The notes under the pieces: model-generated
The model's input: only the letters and a program-made list of their open reading frames with translations
Database searches by the model: none
What the model was told of the DNA's origin: nothing
In this document: positions 8,817 to 39,855 of the stretch, piece after piece
Layout: each line of letters starts with the position of its first letter
Position numbering within the stretch: position 1 is the stretch's first letter
Made by a program: the position numbers and the translations under genes
Assembly (NCBI GenBank): GCA_031082155.1
Contig: JAVHLL010000020.1
Coordinates: 1-49,421 of the forward strand
Source of the DNA: Thermodesulfovibrionales bacterium
GTDB lineage: Bacteria > Nitrospirota > Thermodesulfovibrionia > Thermodesulfovibrionales > SM23-35
Direction: 5' to 3'
Length of the DNA: 49,421 nucleotides

Positions 8817-8871
8817 TCTTGATAAATTATGCCATAAAGCCCGGCGGGATCACAATGTGATAGAATCTCAT

Positions 8872-23734: not shown

Positions 23735-25528
23735 TTATTTGGCGACGGTGATTTCCTGACTGTATGTATATGTTCCACTCAGATTGACCTGTTTTATCCG
23801 ATAGAGATAGGTGCCTTTATTGCGCACTTTCTTGTCATAAAAACTATATGTCCGGATTACAGAGGACGTACCCGCTCCGCTTACAGAACCAACGTACACC
23901 CAAGAAGTCGATACGGAAGAGCGGCGCTCTATCTCAAATCCCTTCGTATTGCATTCTGAAATAGTACGCCAGGTCAGCACAATTCCCCTGCCGCTCGGAT
24001 ATCCGGTAAAGTTATCGATAACCGTAATGCAGACGGTTTCCGTCGAAAAATTCCATACCATTGACCATTCGCTTGATCCGGTGCTATTCTGCGCTCTTAC
24101 ACGCAAATAATAGCGGGTATTGGGCGAAAGACCATTCGCAGAGAATGATGTGCCCTGAATACCGCTCGCATTTATGACCAATGATGCGAACACGGCATCA
24201 GACGAAACCTGCAATGAGTAAGAAGAAGCTTGCGGTGATGGATTCCACGTCAATACAGGATTTGTCGGTATTGCTCTTGCATTGTTCGGGGGAGAAACAA
24301 GGACCGGCTGGTCCGGTAACGGGGGGTCTACAACAGGCATGCCTCCTGTCGCATCTTTTATCGACTGCAGCAGACTGTCAGGGAGAGGCTCTGCCGGTCT
24401 CCAGCCACCCCCCAGTTCAAACACCATTATACCTCCGAGACCTTTGTCCTTCACATACCGGATCTTTTCAACGCACGACGTTTCATCGTCGTATGAGATG
24501 AACTTGTCATAGGTGGAACCGATCGAATCGATACTTAAATAGGGTGCCTGAGCGACGCTGTCCCAGCGGTAAAACTGAGGTTGGAAATAATTATCCATGA
24601 GCTCATGATAAGGAATATAACTTTGAACATCAGGGGCTGTGATCCAGCTCTGCCCTGGCGCTGTGACTCCCCCTGTTGGAGTCCCTGTCCCTCCACTCCA
24701 TACATGACCGAAAAACGCAATACCTATACCAAGTTTACTAGCCTCTACCCCAGCATTAATATACTGGTCAACCAATCCATTCGTTGATGGAACAGGGTTC
24801 CCTGTACTGGGGAAAATATACCCGCCATCGTAAATAGCAGCATTATGCCATGTTATCCAACCAGACCAAGGACCTGATAAGTTATACGTCATAATGTTTA
24901 TTTGCTCAAATTTATCCTGCAACTGAGCAAAAAGATGAGATTGAGATTTAACAGCAGCTGTCAAAACAAGAGGCGGGCTTTCCCTGTTAAGAGCATCCTT
25001 CAGTTCTGTAATGAATGTTGAGTATTGTAAGCCCGAGGATGAAGATAGCGGCTCCCAGTCAATATCAATACCATCATAACCTCTGTTTGTCATAAAATTG
25101 ATGAGGTTATTGATAAATTTTGTCCTGTTGGTATCATTCGTTGCACCCAGGAATGCAGCTTCTGATAACCAACCACCAAGCGAAATCAATACTTTCTTCC
25201 CTGCCACATGAGCAGCATCAACCAGGGCCTCAGAGTTTTGAGGAAAAATACAATCTTCCACATAATCAAGAGAACCATCAGCATTTGGTTTAATTGCAAA
25301 ATGGATGATATGGGTAAGAGCGCTGAAGTCAATATCCTCTGGATTTAAGTAGCCTCCGTTCTCGGTCTGGCTGCACCCCTGCATCCAGCCTGCATAGTAA
25401 GCACTGACCCAAATATCGGGTTGAGCAAGTGCAACTTTGCTATAGGCAAACTGGACAATAAGCAACACTATCAAAAGCGAGCACAACCGTGCAAGTTTTA
25501 TATTTCCACTCATCTTATCTTTTTTCAT
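23735..25528 (-). CDS. Secreted GH18 chitinase-like glycosidase with Fn3 domain
   Basis: The 597-residue protein begins with a signal peptide (hydrophobic residues 13-36, cut near ALAQ). A GH18 TIM barrel spans about residues 38-395, with the strand-3 motif LISLGGW, the catalytic DGIDIDWEP (D152, D155, D157, E159), INIMTYNLSG and GIMVFELGGGW. A fibronectin type III domain (~408-495) and a second beta module (~500-597; GFEIERRSS, YLYRIKQVN) follow; the latter resembles modules near secretion tags in Bacteroidota but no type IX signal is present. Start at 25528 is supported by GGGAGG eight bases upstream. GH18 enzymes cut beta-1,4- or beta-1,6-linked N-acetylglucosamine polymers, so it may trim the polymer made by the divergent synthase operon. 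Confidence 0.92.
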   Translation of the reverse strand: MKKDKMSGNIKLARLCSLLIVLLIVQFAYSKVALAQPDIWVSAYYAGWMQGCSQTENGGYLNPEDIDFSALTHIIHFAIKPNADGSLDYVEDCIFPQNSEALVDAAHVAGKKVLISLGGWLSEAAFLGATNDTNRTKFINNLINFMTNRGYDGIDIDWEPLSSSSGLQYSTFITELKDALNRESPPLVLTAAVKSQSHLFAQLQDKFEQINIMTYNLSGPWSGWITWHNAAIYDGGYIFPSTGNPVPSTNGLVDQYINAGVEASKLGIGIAFFGHVWSGGTGTPTGGVTAPGQSWITAPDVQSYIPYHELMDNYFQPQFYRWDSVAQAPYLSIDSIGSTYDKFISYDDETSCVEKIRYVKDKGLGGIMVFELGGGWRPAEPLPDSLLQSIKDATGGMPVVDPPLPDQPVLVSPPNNARAIPTNPVLTWNPSPQASSYSLQVSSDAVFASLVINASGIQGTSFSANGLSPNTRYYLRVRAQNSTGSSEWSMVWNFSTETVCITVIDNFTGYPSGRGIVLTWRTISECNTKGFEIERRSSVSTSWVYVGSVSGAGTSSVIRTYSFYDKKVRNKGTYLYRIKQVNLSGTYTYSQEITVAK

Positions 25529-25962
25529 CAACTAACCTCCCTCGGGTCTTCTTCTGAAATGAACCAGAGTATCTGCAGCCCTGTGTCTCCGGGAAACTGG
25601 TTATTGCAAGGTCATCCATAAACCCCAGACTTGTATGCCCTCAATGTGAACGGTAAACTCTTTCAGTAAATTGCCTCTGAAAATTTTTTATCCTTGTTTT
25701 AACTGTATAAAAAATAGCGATGGAAACGATGTGATTTGAGTTACATGCATCCATTTTTTACTACATATGATCACTGAATCTTGTATTACCCCCTGAAATC
25801 ACACAGAATTCCCTTCGCGTCTTGGCAGTATAAGGGAATAATTTGATGGAACAGCAAAGTGAAAATGTCCTGAATGCAAAACGCTAAACTGCTAGTTTTT
25901 AGAAGGGTACAGGATGACGGAAAAGACATTCTCATAACGCGGCAGGAACAATTAAAGATTCG
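25529..25962. other. Intergenic region between GH18 gene and EPS operon promoter
   Basis: About 430 bases of A/T-rich sequence without a credible gene. It must contain the promoter of the GH18 gene on the minus strand; I did not find a convincing box pair. Nothing resembling an RNA gene or mobile element is evident. Confidence 0.45.
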
Positions 25963-25991
25963 TTGATAAATCTATCCCCAATTACTATAAT
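25963..25991 (+). promoter_or_regulatory. Sigma-70 promoter of the exopolysaccharide operon
   Basis: TTGATA (25963-25968) and a perfect TATAAT (25986-25991) are separated by 17 bases, the ideal spacing. Transcription should start near 25998, giving an ~80-base leader before the synthase gene at 26078 that contains the dyad at 26023-26043. Confidence 0.7.
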
Positions 25992-26022
25992 GGACACAAT
26001 TATTAAATATATTGTTTTGGAT

Positions 26023-26043
26023 ACCCCTACCCAGGTAGGGGGT
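26023..26043. promoter_or_regulatory. Dyad operator candidate in the EPS leader
   Basis: CCCCTACC (26024-26031) and GGTAGGGG (26034-26041) form a perfect 8-bp inverted repeat around two bases. With a transcription start near 25998 it would lie at about +26 to +44. The loop is too tight for a stable RNA hairpin, so a binding site for a dimeric regulator is more likely than an RNA element. The regulator is unknown. Confidence 0.5.
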
Positions 26044-26077
26044 GCATTGAAGATGAAGATGATAAAATAAAGGAAAA

Positions 26078-27730
26078 ATGAATAACCAGGAATCAAATTT
26101 CCCCAAGGAAAAACAGGAACGCCGTCTTCGTTCACGGGCAAGGCCGGATTACAGTGATCGTAGGTCTTCTCTACGGTTTGTGAGTAATTTCCCTGTAAAT
26201 ATCTATGTTGGTAAAGGCACGGATGCACGTGTTTATCATGCAACTGCCCGCGACATCTCCGATGGCGGTCTCTTATTAGAAAATGTTGACATTCCTCAAA
26301 CGGAAACGCGGATCAGAGTCGATTTTTCTATTCCCGCAAGCACCATGCCAGAGGAATTTGTCCATGGAAAGTTCCGTCTGGAAGGCCAGATTATACGGCA
26401 GGATCACAAAAAACAGCAGGCCAGTATCGCATTCCAGCAAAAAATGAGCAGCCGGCTTGCCGAATCTACATGGAAATACATGAGCTGGGGTGCAATGTCT
26501 ATCATGTTTCTGACAGTAACGATTGTTCTGCTTATAAAGTTTCAGAACATTTACTTTTTCTGGTTTGATGTACCAGTCTTCCTTTACAGTCTCACTGTCG
26601 GGTTTTACCTTCTGAGCAGATTTGTATTTGCTGCTTTTTACCGCTCACCTAAAAAACAGGATTCCCTGCCCGCAGTGACTATAATTATCCCTGCCTTCAA
26701 TGAAGAAGCATCGATTGAGCAGACACTGATACATGCTCTTGAGGCAGCATATCCTGATGAGAAACTCCATATTATTGCTGTCAATGATGGGAGCAGCGAT
26801 GGAACGCTGAAGGTTATCCAAAAGGTAAGAGAGAAATATCCTGAACTGGTAATTATTGATTTCGCTGAAAATCGTGGGAAGAGGCAGGCGCTGGCAGCCG
26901 GCGCCCAACTTGCTACCAGTGAAGTCGTTATTTTTGTGGATTCGGACAGCCTCCTGGATCCGGACGCAATTCGGAATATAGTGGACGGTTTCGCTGATCC
27001 AAAGGTGATTGCTATAACCGGCCACTGCGAGGTTGCGAATGCATGGACTAATTTCCTCACCAAAATGCAGGCGGTCCGTTACTTTATCGGCTTCCGGGTT
27101 TTGAAAGCTGCAGAGAGCGTATTCGATACCGTCACCTGTCTCTCCGGTCCCCTCGCAGCATATCGCCGGACTCACCTGATGGAAGTTTCCGATATGTGGA
27201 TAAAGCAGACATTCCTCAGCAGACCTGCAACCTTTGGAGATGACAGGAGTCTCACTAATTTTCTTCTGGAAAAAAATAAAAAAGCTAAAGTAATTTACGA
27301 TTCCCGCGCTGTCACGCGGACAATCGTACCGGATAAATATTGGAAATTCTTTCGCCAGCAGATGCGCTGGAAACGTTCATGGTTCAGGGAGAGCTTGAGA
27401 GCATGCCTTTTTATATGGCGGAAACAGCCGCTTATGTCACTCTCGTTTTATCTTGGGTTCATTCTTCCTGTTCTTGGCCCTGCTATCGTATTCCGGGCCA
27501 TGGTTCTCGTGCCGTTTTTCCGCAACGGTTCACCGCTCACCTATCTGCTCGGTATTTTTCTCATGAGCACACTCATGAGTTCAACCTATCTGCTTGCTAA
27601 AAAATCCCGTTTATGGATATATGGTACTCCTTTCTGCTTCTTCTATATGTTTATCCTGGTATGGCAACTGCCATGGGCTATTCTCACTTTCTGGAGAAGT
27701 ACGTGGGGTACCCGTGGTCAGGGATTATGA
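26078..27730 (+). CDS. PilZ-GT2 fusion: processive polysaccharide synthase
   Basis: The 550-residue inner-membrane protein starts with a PilZ domain (residues ~25-125) that keeps the c-di-GMP motifs R29-x3-R33 and D59-x-S61-x2-G64. Two membrane helices (~140-185) lead into a family 2 glycosyltransferase (~198-435) with DGS (237-239), DSD (288-290), GDD (387-389) and the processive QxxRW motif (Q427-W431). More helices follow, and the C-terminus ends in STWGTRG, a motif known from hyaluronan and chitin synthases. The expected reaction is polymerisation of a UDP-sugar, likely UDP-GlcNAc, coupled to export across the inner membrane. PilZ in front of GT2 is the reverse of BcsA, where PilZ is C-terminal. 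AAGGA precedes the ATG. Its stop overlaps the next start (ATGA). Confidence 0.9.
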   Translation: MNNQESNFPKEKQERRLRSRARPDYSDRRSSLRFVSNFPVNIYVGKGTDARVYHATARDISDGGLLLENVDIPQTETRIRVDFSIPASTMPEEFVHGKFRLEGQIIRQDHKKQQASIAFQQKMSSRLAESTWKYMSWGAMSIMFLTVTIVLLIKFQNIYFFWFDVPVFLYSLTVGFYLLSRFVFAAFYRSPKKQDSLPAVTIIIPAFNEEASIEQTLIHALEAAYPDEKLHIIAVNDGSSDGTLKVIQKVREKYPELVIIDFAENRGKRQALAAGAQLATSEVVIFVDSDSLLDPDAIRNIVDGFADPKVIAITGHCEVANAWTNFLTKMQAVRYFIGFRVLKAAESVFDTVTCLSGPLAAYRRTHLMEVSDMWIKQTFLSRPATFGDDRSLTNFLLEKNKKAKVIYDSRAVTRTIVPDKYWKFFRQQMRWKRSWFRESLRACLFIWRKQPLMSLSFYLGFILPVLGPAIVFRAMVLVPFFRNGSPLTYLLGIFLMSTLMSSTYLLAKKSRLWIYGTPFCFFYMFILVWQLPWAILTFWRSTWGTRGQGL

Positions 27731-29664
27731 AAAAAATTTTTTTTGTGCTGCAGCTTTTTGTTCTAGCAGGCATTGTAGCGTTTGTCATCTATTCTGCAGT
27801 TAAACCTGTTCCAAAGCTCAACTACACCCCCGAAGCATGGTCTTCGTGGAACGGTTTTTATGCAATATCCTATGCGGGTGTCACCAAAAAAGGAGATGGT
27901 GCACACGTATCCAGGCAGCAATTCGAAGATCATCTGAGAGCACTGGGGCAGGCCGGATATCAAACCATCAAGCCTGAGGATGTCGTTGCTTTTCTTGAAG
28001 GCAGATCTCCTCTTCCCGAAAAGGCATTAGTCCTCATCATCGAGGGAGACAGGAAAGACAGTTTTCTTTATGCAACACCTATTCTCCGGAAATTCGGCAT
28101 AACAGCTACCCTGTGTGTTCCAACAGCCAATATCCCGGCATGGGACAGTTTTTACCTTCAGGAAGACGATCTGATAAAAATCTTCTCAGAAGCCCACTGG
28201 AACCCTTGCAGCATGGGCAACAGCGCAGTAAAAGAGATTCCGATCAATAGTTCAGGAGGGAAAGGTCACTTTCTTACGACCCGCCAGTGGACAGACAATA
28301 AATCCGAAGATGATACAACTTTCAAGAAAAGGGTTACTGCCGATTATGACAGGGCAGCACAGGTCCTTTCCAAGGTAAGCAACAGGCCGGTTTCCTTATA
28401 CCTTTATCCATTTGCAGATCCTGGCACAGGTGCACAGGCAGATCCACTTGCAGCAGAAATAAACCGGAAAGCCGTAGAAGCACATCACAGGGCAGCCTTC
28501 ATTACAGCGAACAACCCGTTCAACGGAGCAACTGTCAGACCCTATGCTCTCAATCGGTTACGGATTCCAGGCAATTGGGATACTTCGAAACTGATTCATA
28601 CCCTGAATTCCTCCATGCCTAGCCGAACAGCGGTTTCCGGAATGGGAGACAAGAGTCGTTGGACCACACAGGGTGATATTCTCCAACGAGGGAACAGCGT
28701 GAGTCTCGTTTCCGGGACCAGCATGTGGCTTCGCGGAAGTGATGCCTGGTCTGATGCCGATATACGAATTTCTATGGTAATACCGGAGAAATCAGTTGTT
28801 TCCCTGTATGTTCGTTCCGAAGGCAATGATTCTTTTGAGCGGCTGAGCATTCATAATCAAGCCGTCAACTTACAAGAACGAAAAGGGACGGAAGCGCAAA
28901 CCCTGTTCCGCTCTGCTATAAAATATAATGAGAAAGATCCCCAGAATTTCCGTTTAAGGGTAAAAAGAAACCGGGCATGGATCTGGTATAATGACAAGTT
29001 GCTTGCCGGTCAGATTCCCCTCTCATCATATATCGCGCAGGGGAGAATCGGCATCAGCTGCCAGCAGGGTGAAGTCCAGATACTTGATTTCCATGCCGAA
29101 CAACTCCCTAAGGTATTTGCATTTACTGAAAGTTATCGGACAATTTCCCCTCCCCTTCAGCAGGACATTTCAGCTGTCCTCCCCCCGTGGTTTTTGTCAT
29201 ACGCACCACCAACGGTTGATAAAAAACAGCGCATGGATCTTTTAATTGCCGCCTCATCAGGTGTTCAGACAATACCCATAGTACAAACTGCTCAAGAGAT
29301 GACTCCCCTGGAAATTCAGGGGTTTGTTCAAAAGATTGTTGCCCTTCTCCGCGACCCCGTTCTTCATCCTCTTATTTCATATCTCGCGGTGTACGGGTCA
29401 TCTCATTCGTTGGCTGAAGAGCTTCACAAAGAGGGGTATAGCCTCGTTCTGATCGTATCCGCAGAACAGGCAATGCAGCTGATCAAACAGAAAAAGGATT
29501 TATACAAGGACATATTGCTTATTGATAAACAGGTGGGAGATGCAAAAAATGCGATGAAAAACATTCTGCATACTCTTCCTCCTGACCGGATTATCATTCG
29601 TGCTGACCAGCAGGAAGCCGGCGTAGCCGGGATAGGAACAGCTGTCAGTGTTCAGAAGAAATAG
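27727..29664 (+). CDS. Membrane-anchored deacetylase-fold protein lacking catalytic residues
   Basis: The 645-residue protein begins in an ATGA overlap with the synthase gene. An N-terminal membrane anchor (residues ~4-24) is followed by a CE4/polysaccharide-deacetylase-like region (~45-300). Where active enzymes have TFDDG it reads LIIEGDRKDS (~104-113), and the HxxxH metal site is replaced by HWNPCSMGNS (~156-165); the late strand motif survives as YLYPFADPG. So metal binding and deacetylation look impossible. Residues ~308-460 form a jelly-roll-like domain (SMWLRGSDAWSDADIRIS, RLRVKRNRAWIWYNDKLLAG) typical of carbohydrate-binding LamG/DUF1080 folds. The last ~150 residues are an unrecognised alpha/beta domain. 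It is probably a periplasmic polymer-binding subunit taking the PgaB position. Function is inference. Confidence 0.75.
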   Translation: MKKIFFVLQLFVLAGIVAFVIYSAVKPVPKLNYTPEAWSSWNGFYAISYAGVTKKGDGAHVSRQQFEDHLRALGQAGYQTIKPEDVVAFLEGRSPLPEKALVLIIEGDRKDSFLYATPILRKFGITATLCVPTANIPAWDSFYLQEDDLIKIFSEAHWNPCSMGNSAVKEIPINSSGGKGHFLTTRQWTDNKSEDDTTFKKRVTADYDRAAQVLSKVSNRPVSLYLYPFADPGTGAQADPLAAEINRKAVEAHHRAAFITANNPFNGATVRPYALNRLRIPGNWDTSKLIHTLNSSMPSRTAVSGMGDKSRWTTQGDILQRGNSVSLVSGTSMWLRGSDAWSDADIRISMVIPEKSVVSLYVRSEGNDSFERLSIHNQAVNLQERKGTEAQTLFRSAIKYNEKDPQNFRLRVKRNRAWIWYNDKLLAGQIPLSSYIAQGRIGISCQQGEVQILDFHAEQLPKVFAFTESYRTISPPLQQDISAVLPPWFLSYAPPTVDKKQRMDLLIAASSGVQTIPIVQTAQEMTPLEIQGFVQKIVALLRDPVLHPLISYLAVYGSSHSLAEELHKEGYSLVLIVSAEQAMQLIKQKKDLYKDILLIDKQVGDAKNAMKNILHTLPPDRIIIRADQQEAGVAGIGTAVSVQKK

Positions 29665-29678
29665 AGAAAGAGATCAAA

Positions 29679-32600
29679 ATGAAATATTTTAAATTTATAG
29701 TTCTTTCCCTGAGTATTTTTTCCCTGTCCATAGTGTCCTCGTTAACTCGTGCCGAGGACAAAGGGACAGTGCAGCACAATGCCCAAGAAAGCCTGTCTTT
29801 CAAAGGCATGTCTGTCATGCAACTCATACACAAGTCACGTGAGCAGGTGGCAGCAAATAATCTCGATGCCGCCCTCCGGTATATCCGTTTAGCCCTCACG
29901 GTCGACCCTGCTTATGCTGAAGTATGGAAACAACTTGGGCGGGTTTTGATGCTCAAAGGAGAATATAACGAGGCACGAAACGCCCTACAAACTGCTCTCG
30001 ACCTAAAACAGGGCGACCCGGAAATAAACGCATGGATCCATACCATGATGCGTCCTGCAGAGAAAACAGGAGAAACAGCGACGAGGCAGAAGACTCCAAC
30101 GTCTGCCGGGGCATGGCGCGATCTGGGGTGGAGTCTCTGGGTAAAAGGACAACATGATGAAGCGGTTTCCGCCTGGGACCAGGCTATGAAGAATAAAGTG
30201 ACAAACAAGGATCGCCTTTTGAGGCAGGTGGTTGCCCGTCTTGCAGAAGAAGGATATCCGGATAAAGCCGTTGAATTTTTAAATCGATGGAGCCCTGAAA
30301 CCTCTTTTTTATCTTTTGGTCTTGAGTTGATAAAGGAAAAACGGTATGTCGCAGCGAGAACAATCCTGTTAAAAGCATGGGAAACAGGGCAAACCCTCCC
30401 GACTACCGGGTTGTATCTTGGATACGTGGAAGCCAATCTGTACATCTGTCCATCAGTATCCGAGCATCTTTCTCCGTTCCTCAATCAGGGGATAGAAAAT
30501 ATCAAAGAAAAAGAGGGAGAAATCCTTGTTGAGACTATCCTTAAATGCAGTTCTGATGCCGGTATTCTCCCTCTTGTTGAGAGGGTTAATATAAGTTTCA
30601 GTGCTTTCCCTGAATATACCGCTCCACTCAACACAATCGTGTTGAGAGCCGCCGACGCACAATACTCTGACAGGAACATGGGGAAGGCGTTTTCCCTCTA
30701 TCAAAATGTGATAAAACGTGATCCCGAAAAGCCCAATGTCTGGTTTCGTTTGCTCGCCACAGCAGATGCCATAGGTCGTCATAAGGAAGCCGTAGAAATA
30801 CTTCGGGAGGCTGCTTCACGTTCTTCCTCTTCATCAATACGGGAGGGGATACAGGGCAAGTTGATGGCTGATGCCGGAGATATTTCCGGTGCGATACCTC
30901 ATTACCGGAAAAGCTTGACTGACGATCCTGAACAGGATGAACTGCGCCTGGATTTTTTTAATCTCCTGCTGGGATCTGAATTCTTCGACGAAGCACGGGA
31001 AGAAAAAGACTGGTTTTCCCGGCGGCTGGCATCAGGAGATAAAACAGCCAGGGTCTATCTGGCTGAAATGCTGAGTTCCCTTCATGAACATCAAGAAGCA
31101 GTGAAAATATGGCAGGAACTCCATCTTTCATATCCGGAAAATCCCCGCTATGCGGTTGAAACAGCGAGGTCGCTCTTTTCTCTCTGCAGAGCAAAAGAAG
31201 CTGTATCAATTCTTGAAAAGATTATAGAGATCAAGCCAACTTCCCGTGCATATGAACTCATTGCCGAAATAGAAATAGCCCAGGGAAACGTGCAACAGGC
31301 TTTTTTCTGGACTGACAAGGCTATGGTAATGCAGCCATCTCCGGGCATTCTGAAAATCCGTGCCAGTGCTGCAGAATCCCTTGGCAATTATAAAGCTGCG
31401 CGGGAAGCAGCAGAATCCGTTCTCAAATCTGATCCCGGGAACATCGCCATGGCCCGTATTGCAGGCAAGGCGCTCTTTTCAATGGAGTTGGTCAAAGAGG
31501 CGAAATCCTACTATTTAAATCTTATTGTCCGGAATGAAGAATTCCTGCCAGGATTAATCGCCCTGAGGGATATCGCATACGATCAGCAAAACCCTGATGA
31601 CGCCCTCAAGCACACAAAACAGATTCTTGACCAGAGACCTTGGGACATAAATGCTGATATCCGTTATGCAGTGTCCCTCGGAGTCGAGGAACAATTCAAC
31701 CCAGCCCTGAAATCCTTGCGTGACATCACGGAAAAGGATTTCCGAGAGGCGGTTCCGGTGATGGCTTATGACAACGTTACCCAATGTCACTATAGCGGCA
31801 GGAATACCACCGGGCAGATTGTTTCCCACTGGGAACGCCTTCATAACGAAGGCTATATATTCATCATTCCATCTGAATTGAATGCCGCTGCTGATCAACT
31901 GAGGACAATCGCTGTCATCGTAGATCCCGAACCTGATGCCCTGCCGGTGCTCGATTCAGCACTAAAACGCATTGGGGGGCGGGCTGTTCTGGCAATAAGG
32001 ACTGGTTCCCTCTCGAACCTCGTTCCGGGAAGTCCGGACCCTTCAATCCTGAAAAAATTAAGAGAAAGCGGAAGATGGATCATTGCATCGAGCGGACCGG
32101 AAACTTTCCAGCGTTCTCCGGTTACCAGTTCCGGAACACTCGGCAATCCCCTGACCCATACAATCTTCTCCCATACCATGAAAAGTGAAGATGAAACCAT
32201 GATGTCCAAGCGTCTTGATACCTTGCTCGCTGATGCTTCCCGTGAGTTGGGTTCCTCTGCGCCACGCATCTTCGTATATCCCGGGGGTGACTACGGACAG
32301 TTCTCTCTCGACACCGATCCGAACCGCATTGAGACTCTCAAGAAGAGTATTGGGGAACAGTTCGATTTCGCAATTGCGGGTGACGATTACGGATTTATCA
32401 CACAGGGGTTTGATCCCTCCAGGTTGTCCGGTCGTTTTGTGCCCCCGCAATGGGATGAAGAGGGATTGATGAAGCATATGCATGAAAACAATCCTCTCGT
32501 ACGATCGCACCTCGAACTGGCCAAGGTCTTATACTGGCAAAGTCAGTATGAAAAGGCGCACAAGGCGTTCCAGAAAGCTGAAACGCTGGGAGCAGATCCT

Positions 32601-33581
32601 CTTGATGTCAATTTTCACTGGGGCAACAGCGCATATCAGGAGGGAGACCTTGCATCAGCGCTCAAGAGGCTAAATCTTGCAAAAGAACTTGACCCTGCAT
32701 CAAAGAGAATTCTGATATCTCTTGATCGTGCCGAGAACCGGGCAAGGCCCCTCTTCAGATTCAACTATAGCGGATGGGACGACGCGGATAACCGCAGCTA
32801 TGAGAAATACAGATTATCAGTTGAAGGGTATGTCAGCAGAAAAGTCAGCCTAGAGCTTTTTGGTGACTACAGTCGATGGTCCCGGAAAAACATCGGCGAT
32901 GAAGATGGCACCCGGACAGGGGCGGGCATTCTCTGGCACTTTGCTGACGAGCGCTGGGTAAAAGCACGTCTGTGGTATTTGTCTGTCAGCCATATTGACG
33001 ACCATTTCGGCGGTCTTTTGAATATCCATTTGCCGAATGCACCCTTTGGCGGGTATGTCGAGCTCGAGGCTGAACGTCAGGAGGTCGATACGGTAGAAGC
33101 CATTCGGGAAAAGACAATGGCAAACACGTATACGCTCTATACTTATTCGCGAATCAGGGATTTCTGGGATCTGTATGCCGACTTTTCCTATACTGCGCGT
33201 TCGGACAATAATGATACCTACATGTCAGAAGGAAGGTTTGGATATCGTTTCCATGAATGGCCGTTCCTTGGCGCCGGCTATGCATTCCGTTTTGCAGACA
33301 GCGACCGCAGTCCCGATGAATACTGGGCTCCTGTGAAACTCCAGCAGCATCAGCTCTATGCCGCATCACGCGGAGCATATAAGAACCTGCATTATTCCTT
33401 GAGTGTCCGGGCCGGCTATGCCGAAGAAGAAGATACAGACTGGCGTTTTGTCTGGGGAACTCGGTTAACGGTCAATTATCTGATCTTTTCCCGTCTCAGC
33501 CTTAATGGCGAAATCAATTATCTTGAATCACCGGTATATGACAGAACTGCCTGGTTTCTCGGAATCTCTTTCAGGTTCTAA
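29679..33581 (+). CDS. TPR / pseudo-deacetylase / outer-membrane beta-barrel exporter
   Basis: The 1300-residue protein has a signal peptide (cut near residue 25), a long TPR region (~45-690, for example LDAALRYIRLALTVDP), a deacetylase-like domain (~691-925), a short TPR pair (~935-1020) and a C-terminal beta-barrel (~1024-1300) of alternating-residue strands ending in ISFRF, the usual outer-membrane barrel end. TPR plus barrel is the PgaA/BcsC-type exporter plan. The inserted domain starts PVMAYDNV, but motif I reads VIVDPEPDA (~746) instead of a TFDDG box and no HxxxH is seen; only the FVYPGGDYG loop (~865) is kept, so it is probably a binding domain. It lies 14 bases after the previous gene. 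The fusion would couple polymer binding to the export pore. Confidence 0.82.
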   Translation: MKYFKFIVLSLSIFSLSIVSSLTRAEDKGTVQHNAQESLSFKGMSVMQLIHKSREQVAANNLDAALRYIRLALTVDPAYAEVWKQLGRVLMLKGEYNEARNALQTALDLKQGDPEINAWIHTMMRPAEKTGETATRQKTPTSAGAWRDLGWSLWVKGQHDEAVSAWDQAMKNKVTNKDRLLRQVVARLAEEGYPDKAVEFLNRWSPETSFLSFGLELIKEKRYVAARTILLKAWETGQTLPTTGLYLGYVEANLYICPSVSEHLSPFLNQGIENIKEKEGEILVETILKCSSDAGILPLVERVNISFSAFPEYTAPLNTIVLRAADAQYSDRNMGKAFSLYQNVIKRDPEKPNVWFRLLATADAIGRHKEAVEILREAASRSSSSSIREGIQGKLMADAGDISGAIPHYRKSLTDDPEQDELRLDFFNLLLGSEFFDEAREEKDWFSRRLASGDKTARVYLAEMLSSLHEHQEAVKIWQELHLSYPENPRYAVETARSLFSLCRAKEAVSILEKIIEIKPTSRAYELIAEIEIAQGNVQQAFFWTDKAMVMQPSPGILKIRASAAESLGNYKAAREAAESVLKSDPGNIAMARIAGKALFSMELVKEAKSYYLNLIVRNEEFLPGLIALRDIAYDQQNPDDALKHTKQILDQRPWDINADIRYAVSLGVEEQFNPALKSLRDITEKDFREAVPVMAYDNVTQCHYSGRNTTGQIVSHWERLHNEGYIFIIPSELNAAADQLRTIAVIVDPEPDALPVLDSALKRIGGRAVLAIRTGSLSNLVPGSPDPSILKKLRESGRWIIASSGPETFQRSPVTSSGTLGNPLTHTIFSHTMKSEDETMMSKRLDTLLADASRELGSSAPRIFVYPGGDYGQFSLDTDPNRIETLKKSIGEQFDFAIAGDDYGFITQGFDPSRLSGRFVPPQWDEEGLMKHMHENNPLVRSHLELAKVLYWQSQYEKAHKAFQKAETLGADPLDVNFHWGNSAYQEGDLASALKRLNLAKELDPASKRILISLDRAENRARPLFRFNYSGWDDADNRSYEKYRLSVEGYVSRKVSLELFGDYSRWSRKNIGDEDGTRTGAGILWHFADERWVKARLWYLSVSHIDDHFGGLLNIHLPNAPFGGYVELEAERQEVDTVEAIREKTMANTYTLYTYSRIRDFWDLYADFSYTARSDNNDTYMSEGRFGYRFHEWPFLGAGYAFRFADSDRSPDEYWAPVKLQQHQLYAASRGAYKNLHYSLSVRAGYAEEEDTDWRFVWGTRLTVNYLIFSRLSLNGEINYLESPVYDRTAWFLGISFRF

Positions 33582-33591
33582 CACTATCGTT

Positions 33592-34662
33592 TTACCGGTC
33601 AGGCAGGGTCTCGATTTTCTTTTCCTCTGTTTCACGTGTTTGCGACTTCTTCATTAACTGCACCGCTTGAGAAACGGTATAGAAAGGCAGTTTCTCAGCA
33701 GCATATGAAATAACCTTCCGGAAATAGGAGAGTTGAATTCCGTAACAGGGGCCGATTATGAAACTCGCCTGCGTTTCTGACATCTTTGATAAATCATCCT
33801 GAAAAACGGTAATCGTGTCCCCTTTGATATTTTCAACTTTTACCGGCATGTAGACACGCCTGCGGATATCAGGCACAAGGCAAAAGTCGTTCCTTGAGGG
33901 CAGTTCCACATTTCGGTCGGAGACCAATGAACGAGCTGAAAGGGATTGTACGGTGCCTGTAAAAAATTCCTCATCAGGTAATACCTTGTGGCCGTAAAGG
34001 AAAAGTAATTTATTCTGCTCCCGGACAAAATCGATCCATTGAAATATCTGCGGTAAAGGCACATAAAAGCTGATATCAAAGTCGGTCCCTGGGATCGATC
34101 CGTCCCTTCCGATACTATCGTCTGCAGCAAAGACTTCGTCCCGACGGAAACTGGAGAACCTTTTTATGACTTCTTTTGCTAATTCTTTAGAATATGCATT
34201 ATAGGGGAATACGATCGATTGTATTTTCAGACCCTTGGCGTTCAATTCTTTTACCGAGTCCTCAAGTTCGCTGCTGACCCATGCAGGAAGGCCTTTTTGT
34301 TTTATATATGACGGTGCATTAAAATGGTGGTAGGTATGAGTGCCAATTTCCCATCCATATCTGTTCTGCAAGGTGCGGAGATCCTCAAAGCTCAGATCGC
34401 CAAAATTGATTCGCTGGTTATTCACAAATCCTGTTGCCACTCCACCGACATGTGATAACTCAGGGGCAATAATGTTTATCCAGCTGGGATATCCATCATC
34501 AAAAGCAATCACTATGCCGCCATGGTTCTCTTCAGGATATACCGGCAAGGGGGATATGAAATGCATAAGGAAGAGAAGGAAAGCAAGGAGGAAGCGGATC
34601 CCTCTCACACCTCTCTTGTTCACAATACCCATACTTGAAAAATAGAAACTCTTAACGCTCAT
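33592..34662 (-). CDS. Periplasmic polysaccharide deacetylase (CE4), intact
   Basis: The 356-residue protein (start ATG 34662, AAAGG eight bases upstream) has a hydrophobic signal segment (residues ~21-42) and a CE4 domain with all metal ligands: IAFDDG (Asp-Asp near 55-56) and HTYHH (His109 and His113). A later SIVFPYNAY corresponds to the third motif. It should remove acetyl groups from N-acetylated sugars. It is encoded convergently against the exporter gene and 11 bases from its end, so it belongs to the locus but not to the operon. It is the only deacetylase domain here with catalytic residues. Confidence 0.88.
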   Translation of the reverse strand: MSVKSFYFSSMGIVNKRGVRGIRFLLAFLLFLMHFISPLPVYPEENHGGIVIAFDDGYPSWINIIAPELSHVGGVATGFVNNQRINFGDLSFEDLRTLQNRYGWEIGTHTYHHFNAPSYIKQKGLPAWVSSELEDSVKELNAKGLKIQSIVFPYNAYSKELAKEVIKRFSSFRRDEVFAADDSIGRDGSIPGTDFDISFYVPLPQIFQWIDFVREQNKLLFLYGHKVLPDEEFFTGTVQSLSARSLVSDRNVELPSRNDFCLVPDIRRRVYMPVKVENIKGDTITVFQDDLSKMSETQASFIIGPCYGIQLSYFRKVISYAAEKLPFYTVSQAVQLMKKSQTRETEEKKIETLPDR

Positions 34663-34690
34663 TGTCAAGCCTTTTCTCCAATTCAGTATA

Positions 34691-34718
34691 TTGAAATTAT
34701 TTCTCTACCCTTTATAAT
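34691..34718 (+). promoter_or_regulatory. Sigma-70 promoter of the beta-helix lipoprotein gene
   Basis: TTGAAA (34691-34696) and TATAAT (34713-34718) are 16 bases apart, 71 bases before the ATG at 34789. The region lies between the divergent deacetylase and beta-helix genes. Confidence 0.6.
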
Positions 34719-34788
34719 GTAAAAGCATGTATCGTCTTGCTTATCCAAAAAAATGCAGTTCGCAGACCAGACAGATAAGGAACGACTG

Positions 34789-36468
34789 ATGAGGATACTT
34801 AACCGTGTTCTTCTCGCTCTTGTTCTCATCTTTTCTTTTGGATGCTCATTACAGAAATCCTGGCGAAGCACTCTCTATCCGGGAGACTGGTCACCCGGGC
34901 ACAAAGACTCTTTAGGCCGGTTTCTCCATGATTTCTCATATGCAGGATATCGCCTGGGTGAAGAGGAAATCCCCAAAGATATTAAGGGCATTCTTGTGGA
35001 TGTCACCCGTTCTCCTTTTCATGCAGACAGTTTAGGTATTCATGATGCAACAGAGGCTATCCAGGGTGCGCTTGATTTTGTTGGTGAAAAAGGAGGCGGC
35101 GTGGTCTATCTGCCTCCCGGGACTTACCGCATAAAGCCTCCCTCAGGCAATACTTCTGCACTTTGGATCAAATATGCAAAAGTAGTCCTTCGGGGCGCAG
35201 GCCGCAAGAAAACATTCCTTCTGAGTGATGAGACCACTATGAGGGAGAAAAGTGTTATTACAGTTTATCCGCTTAACGGGGGGGACTGGCATGAACCTGT
35301 CAGTAAACCGGTTGCCCTGTCACAGGATTTATTGGAACCAACAATCAGGATACCTGTTGAAGATATAAGAAATCTTCGTGTCGGTGACTGGATCATTGTT
35401 CGCGCCGACGCCACAAGAGCATTTGCTGGCGATCACAATATGGGATACAGTGATGAGCCCTGCGAGGAATCATACATACCCTGCCCTTGGAACGCGAAAT
35501 TAAACGGCATTACTTTCTACCGCAGAATTGTTGCGATAGACCCAGAGGAAAATGTCCTCTTTATCGATATACCGACGCGGTATTCTCTCAAAAAGAGAGA
35601 TAACGCCCGGGTCTACAAGGTTGCTTCCTCTATCGAAGAAGCAGGAGTTGAGGACCTGTCCATAGGGAACAGGCAGAGTTTCCGGCCAGGATGGGGTGAT
35701 ACCGATTACAGAGAGGCGGAAGAGAACAAAGGAAAAGGAGCTTACCAGGTGCATTTTTCTTCCCTCATAAAAATACAGCATGCAGTGAACTGCTGGGTAC
35801 AGCGCGTAACAACATATGCACCACCAGGGAATTCAGCCGATGTTCATATGCTCTCAAACGGGATACTGATCTATAAATCCCGCAGCATTACTATTCAGGA
35901 TTGTGCTCTGTCCTCACCGCAATATAAAGGTGAAGGAGGCAATGGATATGCTTTTATCATCCGGGGGAGCGATAACCTGCTCATTGACTGTGAGGCACAG
36001 AATACACGACATGGATATTCACTGCTGAGCATGTGGACCCATGGGAATGTAATTTTCCGTTCCTCATCATATAATGCCCGGTATCCTGTCGATTTCCATA
36101 TGCATCTGAGCGTTGCAAACCTTCTGGATAATATAACCCTGAACCAGGATTATATAGAAGCAAAATACCGGCCTTACGGCACAACTCTCCACGGACAAAC
36201 CACAACACAGAGTGTCATATGGAATACAAATGGTGTTCAATATAAGGACGGGAAAGATTATATTATTGATTCAAGACAGTTCGGAACCGGATACGTTATC
36301 GGAACCAGGGGTCCGTCATCCTCTGTGAAAACCACCCCTGTGACAATCAATGGATATGATACATCACCTGAAGATTTTGTAGAGGGGATCGGGCTTGGCA
36401 AAACCCTTGTCCCTCATTCTCTCTTTCTCGATCAGTTGAAAAGACGCACTGCTCACCCAACAGAGTGA
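34789..36468 (+). CDS. Pectate-lyase-like beta-helix lipoprotein
   Basis: From the ATG at 34789 (AAGGA seven bases upstream) the protein has 559 residues. A lipoprotein signal ends in FSFGCS. Residues ~70-480 form a right-handed parallel beta-helix of the Pectate_lyase_3 type: DATEAIQGALDFVGEKGGGVVYLPPGTYRI is the classic opening (here split across residues 76-105), then KYAKVVLRGAGRKKTFL, SSLIKIQHAVNCWVQRV and NGILIYKSRSITIQDC. Such proteins bind or cleave acidic or amino polysaccharides. Lyase catalytic residues cannot be assigned by eye. Placement suggests it acts on or holds the polymer of this locus at the membrane. An in-frame ATG at 34753 has no ribosome binding site. Confidence 0.82.
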   Translation: MRILNRVLLALVLIFSFGCSLQKSWRSTLYPGDWSPGHKDSLGRFLHDFSYAGYRLGEEEIPKDIKGILVDVTRSPFHADSLGIHDATEAIQGALDFVGEKGGGVVYLPPGTYRIKPPSGNTSALWIKYAKVVLRGAGRKKTFLLSDETTMREKSVITVYPLNGGDWHEPVSKPVALSQDLLEPTIRIPVEDIRNLRVGDWIIVRADATRAFAGDHNMGYSDEPCEESYIPCPWNAKLNGITFYRRIVAIDPEENVLFIDIPTRYSLKKRDNARVYKVASSIEEAGVEDLSIGNRQSFRPGWGDTDYREAEENKGKGAYQVHFSSLIKIQHAVNCWVQRVTTYAPPGNSADVHMLSNGILIYKSRSITIQDCALSSPQYKGEGGNGYAFIIRGSDNLLIDCEAQNTRHGYSLLSMWTHGNVIFRSSSYNARYPVDFHMHLSVANLLDNITLNQDYIEAKYRPYGTTLHGQTTTQSVIWNTNGVQYKDGKDYIIDSRQFGTGYVIGTRGPSSSVKTTPVTINGYDTSPEDFVEGIGLGKTLVPHSLFLDQLKRRTAHPTE

Positions 36469-36525
36469 CCGGGGGAAAAGCAAGGGACGATCGGTAATAT
36501 CAGGATGCTCATAATGCAACCCTCT

Positions 36526-37548
36526 TTATTGACGGAGTGTTTTATATGCAGACAGTATCCTGAATAAATTCTCATCGTTTCCTCCCAGCTTCCAGATCAT
36601 CACCTTACGATATCCGTTTCTGGAAGCAGCTCCCCACTTCTCCCCGATACTGATATCATCTTCAAACCATATTTCAGCGCCATCTTTCTGACGGGAAAAC
36701 GGCACATTGTTAAAAAACCCTCTTCCATTCTTCACTGCATACTGAGTCATCCTCTGTCCTTCTCTCCATTCGAGTTGCCGGACTTTCCCATCGGAACCCC
36801 AGGAGAACCCTCCAACTGCCAGCGCAATCCCGGGCGCATTATACCTATCACACGCGCCCCGCTTTCGCAGTGAAGATATGAATCTGGCTGTAGCGCGGGG
36901 CCCTGGTCCGGTATGCGGGCCATGAAGATTATATCCCATAACGGTAAGCGACACCGTTGAGGGAGCTGGCAAAGGTCCGCGCCGTGGTTCTACAACAACA
37001 TTAAGCCCCAGCCCGTTGTGTTCGAGTTCCGCAGACAATGCAGAGACAAACGCACGATAGTTATCCTGATCAGAAACATCGAGGCCTTCGTAATCGAGAT
37101 CTAGTCCTGCAAACCCGTCTTCTTTCATCCTTTGTACGATGTTCTTTACATGCTGGTTAAGCTGAAGAGGATCAGCAATGAGTTGCCGCACAATATTGCT
37201 GTCTTTTAGACTGACGCTGTTGGGTGTACGCAGATCGTTCACCAAAGTTACCCATGGAGAAAAACCGGTTTGTTGGGAAAGGGCAAAAAATGGCGGCATG
37301 ATGTCTCCAAGATGAGGCGCATGCCGGATGTTTCCGGACGCATCCAATTCATATGCAAAAAGGGAGACACGGTCAAACAATCCTCCGTTTTGTTCAAGCT
37401 CCTGTATTCCCCGCTCTCCATCCCAGTATACTATCCATGCGCCAATATGCTGTGGCGGCCTAATTTCCTCTCCAGGAGCACAGTACCCCAAACAGAGAAG
37501 AATCATCGATAAAAACAACCATGATTTCAGTTGCAGTGCGAATTGCAT
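36526..37548 (-). CDS. GH18-like glycosidase, envelope-located
   Basis: The 340-residue protein (start 37548) begins with a hydrophobic signal segment ending near Cys23 (LGYCAP), possibly a lipoprotein. A GH18-like barrel follows, with IGAWIVYWDG, the catalytic segment AGLDLDYEG in which D150, D152 and E154 match the DxDxE core while the first Asp of DxxDxDxE is Ala147, and VSLTVMGYNLHG. It is shorter than chitinases and resembles the spore-lytic/chitinase-like YaaH group. The start lies 10 bases after the DUF2207 stop, so it is probably cotranscribed with lemA and the DUF2207 gene, though its activity fits the exopolysaccharide locus. The open frame extends 13 codons upstream into the DUF2207 gene; these are not needed. 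Confidence 0.82.
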   Translation of the reverse strand: MQFALQLKSWLFLSMILLCLGYCAPGEEIRPPQHIGAWIVYWDGERGIQELEQNGGLFDRVSLFAYELDASGNIRHAPHLGDIMPPFFALSQQTGFSPWVTLVNDLRTPNSVSLKDSNIVRQLIADPLQLNQHVKNIVQRMKEDGFAGLDLDYEGLDVSDQDNYRAFVSALSAELEHNGLGLNVVVEPRRGPLPAPSTVSLTVMGYNLHGPHTGPGPRATARFISSLRKRGACDRYNAPGIALAVGGFSWGSDGKVRQLEWREGQRMTQYAVKNGRGFFNNVPFSRQKDGAEIWFEDDISIGEKWGAASRNGYRKVMIWKLGGNDENLFRILSAYKTLRQ

Positions 37549-37558
37549 ACAGGGATAT

Positions 37559-39298
37559 CTACCAGCTTCCCCCGCCTCCGCCTCCAAAACCGCCGCCTGA
37601 AAACCCCCCGCCTCCGAATCCCCCGCCTCCGCTTATTCCGCTTCCTCTTGGCGCTGCATACATCGCAGAAGCCAGGCTCGAAGTCGCTGAGCTTATGGAA
37701 CGGGAAAACACATAGGGGTTGAATGCCCTCATACTTGTTTGTGACGCATACCATTGAGGGGGTTCCTGATAAATCCCCTCGAATGCCTTCGCCCAGTTGT
37801 CGACGACATCGAGCGCAATCGCATAGGGCAGGAACTTTGAGAACAGTTCCCTGTCCCCCATCCTCTGCAGTTTGTCCTTCTCTGCTCTGCTCATAAATTC
37901 CTGGAATCCAAGAATGTCCATATAGGCAGATGCGCCGGCTTTGGTTTTCGCAGGCATTACCCTTGCAAAGGCCAATATGGGGAGCCCCATGAGTATACCG
38001 GCGACCACACTCTTTGGTGACTGCATAAGCCATGTGAGCACAAGAATGCTGAAGAGTATCAGCACACCCCCTGCCGTGAGGTAGACCTTTCTGACCTTGT
38101 CAGGGCTGACGAGAAAATATTTTTTGTTTACAAGCTCGCCATAGAGAGTGCTTTTCAGCAGATCAAGTTCTTTGTAAAAGCTGTTTTTCAGTTCCGATAT
38201 CATTCTTCCCGGCACCGGCAGCTCAGAAGTGAACAGGCTGGCCATAAGTACTTTTTCAAAAGGACTGAGACTTTCATCAGGCTCTTTCAACCTCTTCAGG
38301 TAGTAATCAGTTGAGTCGACGATCAGTCCCTCAATCTTTGTTTCCTCAATAGTGAGAAATCCCTTCACCGCCAGTCCGACAAGAGTCGAAGTAATATCCC
38401 TCGGATCGAGTTTTTCATCCACCAGTGCCCCTACTTCTCCGGGTGTTAAGGGAACATTCTTATATTGCGGTGGTTCATACATAACCGTGACAGATTCTTT
38501 CACCCTGGGGTCTCTTCCACGGGAACGCCACACGCCACCCATGAATATGAGAGAAAAAAGGGGGAGGACAAAGACCCAGTTTTCCCTGATATTCAGCGCC
38601 CACAGGAATTTGTTCCAGGCAGACGGCGGGACAACAAGGCCTTTGTCCCACCCAAATGCTATGGTCAGTCCTTCTTTGGAACTCAGACCTCTCGTTGCAG
38701 AGAATTCCCCGGAATTATGCGATGCTTCATACTCACAGGCTGCCTCTTTGGAACCGTGAGCTCCTGTGTAACATGCGGCCCACAGGTGCTGGCTTTTGTT
38801 TTTCGCAGCAAGAGTTACACGGGCTGATGCTAGATCGATAGGCGACCACCAGTAGTTCCCGGTCACATTCCAGTAGAGTTCATCATGGTCTTCAAAGAAG
38901 AGGACCGCATTCCTTACGGTATACGAGATCACATATGTCTGGCGACGCTCGACATATGACTGCGAATCACCGATTCTGATGTTCAGAACATTTCCCTTTC
39001 TCGTGACCCGGTATTTCCAGTCTTTCCCCGATGGGTCGGCTACAGAGAGCACCGAGATCGGCGTAGTGATCTTACCGCCCCGCTCGTCTTCATATTGGAA
39101 AGGGATCTCCCGGTAGATGCCGTGTCTCGGTCTCTGGAATTCCACTTCGATAGTTTCCCGCACCGTGAGTTCAGAATCTTCGTGTATGGAAATATCGGCA
39201 TGGAATGAGTTGATTACAAAGTCCTGAGCCGACAGAGGAGCACTATGGAAAAATCCTGCAATGAACAGGAGAAAGAGGAGCAGGATTCCCTTGCTCAT
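37559..39298 (-). CDS. DUF2207 membrane protein with Gly-rich tail
   Basis: The 579-residue protein has a signal peptide, an extracytoplasmic DUF2207 beta domain (residues ~25-215; FHADISIHEDSELTVRETIEVEF, YRVTRKGNVLNIRIGD, ELYWNVTGNYW), one membrane helix (~238-256), a cytoplasmic part, two more helices (~405-450) and a tail of glycines ending in GGGGGGSW. The tail type is standard for this family, which is usually encoded next to LemA. Its start overlaps the lemA stop by one base (TGATG). Function is unknown; a role in envelope stress or surface assembly has been suggested for such pairs. Confidence 0.92.
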   Translation of the reverse strand: MSKGILLLFLLFIAGFFHSAPLSAQDFVINSFHADISIHEDSELTVRETIEVEFQRPRHGIYREIPFQYEDERGGKITTPISVLSVADPSGKDWKYRVTRKGNVLNIRIGDSQSYVERRQTYVISYTVRNAVLFFEDHDELYWNVTGNYWWSPIDLASARVTLAAKNKSQHLWAACYTGAHGSKEAACEYEASHNSGEFSATRGLSSKEGLTIAFGWDKGLVVPPSAWNKFLWALNIRENWVFVLPLFSLIFMGGVWRSRGRDPRVKESVTVMYEPPQYKNVPLTPGEVGALVDEKLDPRDITSTLVGLAVKGFLTIEETKIEGLIVDSTDYYLKRLKEPDESLSPFEKVLMASLFTSELPVPGRMISELKNSFYKELDLLKSTLYGELVNKKYFLVSPDKVRKVYLTAGGVLILFSILVLTWLMQSPKSVVAGILMGLPILAFARVMPAKTKAGASAYMDILGFQEFMSRAEKDKLQRMGDRELFSKFLPYAIALDVVDNWAKAFEGIYQEPPQWYASQTSMRAFNPYVFSRSISSATSSLASAMYAAPRGSGISGGGGFGGGGFSGGGFGGGGGGSW

Positions 39299-39855
39299 CA
39301 GAAACTGACTTTCACCGGCTTTCTCTCAACATCCGGGGCCTCAAGTTCAAAAAATTCAGCCTGTTTAAAACTGAAGGTAGATGCGACGATATTTGACGGG
39401 AAAGATTCTATCGTAATATTGAAATCCCTGACTACAGCGTTGTAGTAACGCCTCGCATATTCAATGTTGTCTTCGAGTTCCTTCAATTGGGTCTGAAGCT
39501 GCATGAAGTTCGCATTTGCCTTGAGGTCGGGGTATGCCTCTGCAAGGGCAAAGAGACTCTTCAGGGTCTCCTTCAGCATATTCTCGGCCTGTGCCTTTTC
39601 ACCAGGGGTAGCAGCCCTCATTGCGGAAGAACGTGCTTTGGTCACATTTTCAAGGACTGTTTTTTCATGGGACGCATAGCCCTTTACCGTCTCAACAAGG
39701 TTCGGTACGAGATCATATCTCTTTTTCAACTGCACGTCGATGTCCGACCATGACGACTGTACGGTATTCCTCAGACGGATGAGTTTGTTATAGAGTGTAA
39801 TACCGTAGGAGATAAAAGCGACGAGGATTCCAAGAGTTACAAGGGTTGGGATCAT
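39298..39855 (-). CDS. lemA: LemA family protein
   Basis: The 185-residue protein has an N-terminal membrane helix (residues 2-20) and a helical LemA domain: [25 protein letters not shown] (split by the family's conserved NxV), [33 protein letters not shown] and [23 protein letters not shown] stands six bases before the ATG. It is the first gene of the lemA-DUF2207-GH18 group. Exact role unknown. Confidence 0.96.

Follow-up and report, generated by a model that had tools for sequence, protein, structure and literature searches.

Organization of the locus

The window analyzed here is a stretch of 49,421 nucleotides from a Thermodesulfovibrionales bacterium (contig JAVHLL010000020.1). It contains an operon of three coupled genes (26078-33581) for a GT2 synthase, protein C and protein D, with genes for a polysaccharide deacetylase (CE4), a beta-helix protein and two GH18 proteins around it (Table 1). 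The stop codon of GT2 and the start codon of C overlap in an ATGA at 27727-27730; we placed the start of C at 27727, setting aside the mechanical ORF start at 27613, and D begins 14 bases past the end of C. The CE4 gene and GH18b, both on the minus strand, converge on the operon, with the beta-helix gene on the plus strand between them, and GH18a lies upstream of the operon in divergent orientation.

Table 1. Genes of the operon and its surroundings, in window coordinates
Feature	Position	Strand	Evidence
GH18a, chitinase-like GH18 with FN3 domain	23735..25531	-	PF00704, E 5.5e-52
GT2 synthase (PilZ-GT2 with C-terminal membrane helices)	26078..27730	+	Pfam PilZ, E 1.3e-6; GT2, E 4.9e-29
Protein C	27727..29664	+	ATGA overlap; AF2 model; PgaB N-domain and CBM66 fold matches
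Protein D	29679..33581	+	TPR families; AF2 of residues 690-1300; fold matches
Intact CE4 polysaccharide deacetylase, likely secreted	33592..34668	-	PF01522, E 8.6e-9; motifs
Right-handed beta-helix protein, putative lipoprotein	34753..36468	+	PF12708, E 9.5e-12
GH18b, GH18-family hydrolase	36526..about 37545	-	PF00704, E 4.9e-9

The sequence-only reading had described the operon as a PilZ-GT2 synthase, a deacetylase-fold protein without metal ligands and a fusion of TPRs, a dead deacetylase domain and a barrel, and profile searches together with the overlap of reading frames agree that all of these genes are present. It had also placed an intact CE4 enzyme beside the operon. Indeed, this gene scores over the PF01522 cut-off, the only one to do so in the window's genome, and keeps the Asp-Asp and His-x3-His metal site (FDDG, HTYHH) as well as the FPYN and YGH motifs. 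GH18b probably starts near 37545, and the start of its reading frame is overlapped by a minus-strand stretch (37559-39855) encoding a DUF2207 membrane protein with a Gly-rich tail and a LemA protein. The C-terminal tail of GH18a gives the impression, from its residues, of the sorting-type C-terminal domains of secreted proteins.

The synthase

The catalytic motifs of the GT2 synthase (DDG, DxD, GDD and QxxRW) are intact in the window and in all complete homologs. Its N-terminal PilZ domain carries the RxxxR...DxSxxG motif, as RSSLR and DISDGG, and is a putative c-di-GMP receptor through which the synthase may be controlled; the motif is the same in two related loci, L143 and L144, and degenerate or missing in several other homologs. 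The best NCBIfam match is NodC (176 bits, which is also far below the cut-off of that model), followed by PgaC (TIGR03937) at 149 bits against a cut-off of 422, and the best PDB matches are hyaluronan synthases. The window protein has GDDRSLTN and QQxRWKRSW where PgaC has EDIDISW and QRLRWAQG. In a tree, NodC and the cassette GT2s group apart from PgaC/IcaA with support of 100/100, NodC itself lying on a long branch. Profile, motif and tree alike place the synthase nearer to NodC and hyaluronan synthase than to PgaC, which hints at a product of the beta-1,4 type.

Deacetylase folds without metal ligands in proteins C and D

Protein C has a transmembrane anchor (residues 2-25), a PgaB-fold pseudo-deacetylase domain (about 38-298), a CBM66/lectin-like beta-sandwich (about 305-465) and a C-terminal alpha/beta region. 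It is recognized by the PgaB model (TIGR03938, E 1.1e-11; 44 bits against the curated Pga cut-off of 322), and hhalign aligned it with residues 46-297 of E. coli PgaB (E 2e-19), that is, with the N-domain only; the hydrolase domain of E. coli PgaB found no match in this alignment. In an AlphaFold2 model built from 21 homologs (mean pLDDT 83), the predicted deacetylase fold matched the E. coli PgaB deacetylase domain (Z 27.7 over 244 residues, rmsd 2.8), and the predicted beta-sandwich matched CBM66 and lectins (Z 19.6 for CBM66, 150 residues); the C-terminal 170 or so residues were barely covered by the fold comparison. As the sequence-only reading had claimed, the metal ligands are gone: at the four CE4 metal-site positions C reads E/G/M/V, with the base Asp changed to Glu, the metal Asp to Gly and both metal His lost. 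The site is lost in the C proteins of 20 of 21 homologs. The C protein of L024 reads D,H,H,H: an Asp and two His are kept, the metal Asp is replaced by a further His, and the protein may still bind metal. In L143, C (6735-9488, minus strand) ends in SPOR repeats, in three stretches, which suggests contact with peptidoglycan.

Protein D consists of a signal peptide, a TPR array, a dead CE4 fold (about 691-937), more TPRs and a 16-strand outer-membrane barrel (about 1025-1300). TPR profiles, loss of ligands (V/D/S/F at the four metal-site positions) and matches of the AlphaFold2 model of residues 690-1300 (pLDDT 86) bear out the proposed fusion. The predicted CE4-fold domain matched with Z of about 22. 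D scores 38 bits against the PgaA model (TIGR03939, cut-off 367), and because a sequence profile comparison of its barrel with PgaA gave no convincing alignment, we turned to fold comparison: the predicted barrel matched BcsC (Z 26.2), PgaA (Z 25.1) and PelB (Z 24.1) best, with other porins at Z 16 and lower.

In C, no other part is conserved as well as the dead domain. Between the window and L143, identity is 45% in the dead domain of C, 33% in the lectin domain and 29% in the C terminus; in Paenibacillus, the dead domain of C reaches 60-67%, versus 37-48% elsewhere in the protein. For D, the corresponding comparison of the window with L143 gives 44% in the dead domain, 35-39% in the TPRs and 46% in the barrel. 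Thus, the dead domains of both proteins are the best-conserved parts or among them, and as their conservation equals or exceeds that of the adjoining domains, the non-catalytic fold is apparently under purifying selection and not decaying.

Distribution of the cassette

We found the core of the locus, namely GT2, C, D (in diderms only) and GH18b, in scattered bacteria of several phyla, from at least four large bacterial groups; the census from the scan with the GT2 alignment is a lower bound. Two distant genomes among the 396 of the window's phylum carry GT2-C-D-GH18b, and the same ordered set occurs in genomes of the phyla to which a Desulfobacterales MAG and an Acidobacteria MAG belong. These two MAGs and Paenibacillus lycopersici were added, among the matches listed, by the GT2-alignment scan. 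When the phyla of these two MAGs were searched with a profile of C, 3 of 297 and 4 of 297 genomes gave matches, and in Paenibacillales the matches were full-length in 16 of 248 genomes, the weaker ones there being regarded as ordinary CE4 proteins. The same groups recur in the trees built for GT2, C and D, so the cassette has been inherited as a unit; since the trees are congruent and the ordered cassette recurs across phyla, it is not a chance assemblage.

Among the matches listed, the loci nearest to the window are L143 and L144, from the phylum of the Acidobacteria MAG (GT2 58-61% and D about 41% identity). Within the window's order, the cassette occurs in 1 of 176 genomes: full-length relatives were not found in the other genomes of the order, one of them of the same genus, and the cassette was not found elsewhere in the window's genus or family. 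The single extra match in the order (G107) covers residues 53-254 only and looks like an ordinary CE4 protein. With the nearest relatives in another phylum and none at full length in its own order, the distribution points to horizontal spread. A search of viral contigs found no relative of C. Conservation of the neighborhood in relatives, on which the earlier reading had been staked, therefore holds in distant phyla and fails among close kin.

The flanking genes differ in how they follow the core. Orthologs of GH18b are found in nearly all cassettes, those of Paenibacillus included, with D165/Y166/E167 invariant and the catalytic DxDxE kept. The beta-helix gene was not found in any other cassette tested by tblastn, GH18a has no dedicated ortholog among the cassette genes of relatives (only weak cross-matches to their GH18b), and the DUF2207 and LemA genes were not seen beside other cassettes. 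We dropped these four as parts of the cassette; the beta-helix gene is accessory, and GH18a accessory or unrelated. The beta-helix and two GH18 genes noted beside the operon are hence all real, but only GH18b travels with it. The weak match of the beta-helix protein to a hyaluronan lyase model (45 of 1100 bits) was judged uninformative. Directly upstream of GT2, L143 (11138-13482, minus strand) and L144 (2025-4369, plus strand) have a gene pair absent in the window, the first gene of which is peptidase M64-like in L143.

The cassettes of Paenibacillus, a monoderm, comprise GT2, C and, in most, GH18b, without D, and in Paenibacillales a CE4 lipoprotein gene and a nucleotide-sugar dehydrogenase gene lie upstream. 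D is thus missing exactly where the outer membrane is missing, which supports its role as the exporter.

Position of the active deacetylase

We observed three arrangements. In at least five cassettes, the intact CE4 is carried within D: the metal site D,D,H,H is intact in 5 of 5 members of one clade (L017, L018, L022, L024 and L142), and no separate CE4 was found near any of these five cassettes. In genome G371, C and D are the only PF01522 matches. In at least four observable cassettes, the window included, D is dead and accompanied by a separate intact CE4. The site of D is lost in 5 of 5 members of this other clade (the window, L143, L144, L140 and L141), and a separate intact CE4 is present in 4 of 4 observable dead-D genomes (the window, L144/L145, G1043/L147 and L141); L140, whose cassette ends at a contig end, was left out of this count. 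In the window and in L144/L145, operon and CE4 gene are neighbors, and orthologs of the window's CE4 gene adjoin GH18b in L144/L145 and L147, the GH18b-CE4 pair of G1043 (L147) being on a different contig from GT2-C-D; in L141, the CE4-like domain is fused behind a beta-helix region. The association between a dead D and a separate CE4 has a Fisher p of 0.008, a value that overstates independence: all dead-D cases belong to a single clade, so that few independent events underlie it and about two clades are being compared. In the third arrangement, that of Paenibacillus, there is no D and a lipoprotein takes the place of the CE4; of its two CE4 domains, the first lacks the ligands and the second has intact motifs (L023:5523-6992, plus strand; orthologs in L125-L139).

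By their motifs, then, the dead C appears to be kept almost always, and the working deacetylase to change gene between lineages. The claim of two dead deacetylase domains is right for the window, where both C and D have lost the site, and needs qualification beyond it: this is one of three arrangements, and D looks intact in five relatives. The Paenibacillus lipoprotein is another dead/live domain pair. The fusion in L141 (266-2374, minus strand) is a 702-residue protein, a beta-helix region plus a CE4-like domain with intact motifs, beside a dead-D cassette; the beta-helix and CE4 genes of the window are adjacent, possibly by coincidence.

Comparison with described systems and alternative explanations

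The cassette appears to be a new form of synthase-dependent exopolysaccharide secretion, other than Pga, Bcs or Pel, because the barrel of D is nearest to BcsC, PgaA and PelB alike and the synthase is nearest to NodC and hyaluronan synthase. Close orthology to Pga, Pel or Bcs components, which would have told against the sequence-only reading, was not seen, the scores of the proteins being far below the cut-offs of the Pga and Bcs models, and we found no description of this exact gene set in the open-licence literature searched. BcsABC (cellulose) shares a PilZ-controlled GT2 and a TPR-barrel exporter, and PelABCDEFG shares the latter. In contrast to both, the PilZ domain of the cassette is N-terminal, a deacetylase fold is inserted in D, and BcsB-like or PelC-G partners were not recognized in the cassette; the synthase scores 39 bits against BcsA (TIGR03030, cut-off 699), and a Pfam profile search between 26078 and 33581 found no BcsB-like gene. 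NodC and class I hyaluronan synthases have the GT2 motifs but lack export, pseudo-deacetylase and GH18 partners. NfrAB of E. coli (NGR glycan) is a c-di-GMP-controlled GT2 with a TPR-barrel exporter outside the classic systems; there, NfrB has an MshEN-like c-di-GMP domain, and the parts of the source consulted report neither deacetylase folds nor GH18 for it (PMC8669472). The monoderm IcaADBC (PIA, staphylococci) resembles the Paenibacillus form in combining GT2 and deacetylase without an exporter; the two differ in GT2 clade, and the Paenibacillus form has C and GH18b as well as a CE4 lipoprotein of two domains and a nucleotide-sugar dehydrogenase. The chitin/chitosan-like flocculant of Citrobacter was discarded as a known parallel, its bfpABCD genes being pgaABCD homologs (PMC6414854).

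The cassette also resembles PgaABCD/HmsHFRS (PNAG, Gram-negative bacteria), which combine a GT2 synthase, a PgaB-type deacetylase fold and an exporter of TPRs and a 16-strand barrel; through its TPRs, PgaA binds both PNAG and the deacetylase domain of PgaB (PMC9384988). The locus might accordingly be a divergent Pga system in which GT2, C and D stand for PgaC, PgaB and PgaA and the product is beta-1,6-GlcNAc, given that C matches the PgaB deacetylase domain, D has PgaA-like TPRs and barrel, and GT2 is matched by the PgaC model. We consider this unlikely: all three proteins are far below the curated cut-offs, the synthase has its own N-terminal PilZ, motifs other than those of PgaC and a place outside the PgaC/IcaA clade, the PgaB-like protein is dead and carries a lectin-like domain, a deacetylase fold sits inside the exporter, a GH18 gene stands in place of the PgaB hydrolase domain, and PgaD was not recognized. 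The notion that the jobs of PgaB are split over separate genes is largely supported, with dead deacetylase folds, a separate intact CE4 and a separate GH18.

The dead domains might instead be decaying relics, left after the deacetylase function moved to a separate CE4, as the intact D of one clade and the dead D plus separate CE4 of the other would suggest. Their conservation speaks against decay, and since C is dead in every clade, deep ones included (with L024 ambiguous), its loss of ligands is old and the fold has been kept, making this account quite improbable. It is more improbable still, to the point of being remote, that the locus serves to modify peptidoglycan or cell wall, with CE4 and GH18b acting on peptidoglycan and D as an outer-membrane assembly scaffold. 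Peptidoglycan could be the substrate of CE4, profile scores liken the CE4 lipoprotein of Paenibacillus to PdaB/PgdA, and the C protein of L143 has SPOR domains, but neither a processive PilZ-GT2 nor a barrel like those of BcsC, PgaA and PelB is known to take part in such modification, and the cassette is sporadic, unlike wall machinery.

A proposed export machine

A processive GT2, a TPR-barrel exporter and periplasmic modifying enzymes are encoded together here, the general hallmark of synthase-dependent exopolysaccharide systems. Together, these genes very probably assemble a sugar polymer, trim it and export it, and it is likely that the cassette is a c-di-GMP-gated secretion system of this class, in a form for which the literature searched offers no description. 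The genes present, their conservation as a cassette, the lost ligands and the absence of D in the monoderm are observed, and the folds are predicted; control by c-di-GMP, binding and guiding of the polymer by the dead domains, the identity of the polymer and the order of steps are inferred. The NodC/hyaluronan-synthase-like GT2 would make a chain containing N-acetylhexosamine and extrude it across the inner membrane when PilZ binds c-di-GMP. C, anchored in the inner membrane beside the synthase, would hold the emerging chain with its lectin-like domain and the catalytically dead cleft of its PgaB-type deacetylase fold; in diderms, the polymer would then run along the TPRs of D and exit through its BcsC/PgaA-like barrel. 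The one intact CE4 of each cassette, within D or, as in the window, a separate protein, would N-deacetylate the chain, and GH18b would trim or clear it. By analogy, D could be the interaction of PgaA TPRs with the PgaB deacetylase made permanent by fusion.

The polymer itself is probably uncharacterized. The presence of GH18 and CE4 enzymes in the cassette hints at an N-acetylhexosamine, and the TviB-like dehydrogenase in the Paenibacillus operon (450 bits, cut-off 592) hints at a uronic component there; nucleotide-sugar dehydrogenases are encoded elsewhere in 10 of 10 diderm genomes checked and are therefore uninformative on this point. Tentatively, the product might be an exopolysaccharide of N-acetylhexosamine with beta-1,4 linkages and partial deacetylation. 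It might resemble chitosan or, in Paenibacillus, alternate with a uronic sugar, the gene for a TviB-like UDP-GlcNAc dehydrogenase lying beside the synthase there, and C would be a conserved clamp handing the chain from synthase to exporter or wall in diderms and monoderms; we regard this combined picture as possible, short of probable.

Capture of the chain at the synthase and its handover to the exporter are poorly understood in such systems. The cassette would separate the holding of the chain from the removal of acetyl groups: next to the synthase a dead deacetylase is retained, and the live one shifts between genes. The monoderm Paenibacillus form without exporter, together with the diderm forms, offers a simple genetic system for the role of the dead domain. 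In P. cellulositrophicus, the set (annotated as deacetylase family, glycosyltransferase, deacetylase family and GH18) is located on an 897-kb plasmid (L149, NZ_CP045296.1), a location that could aid its spread.
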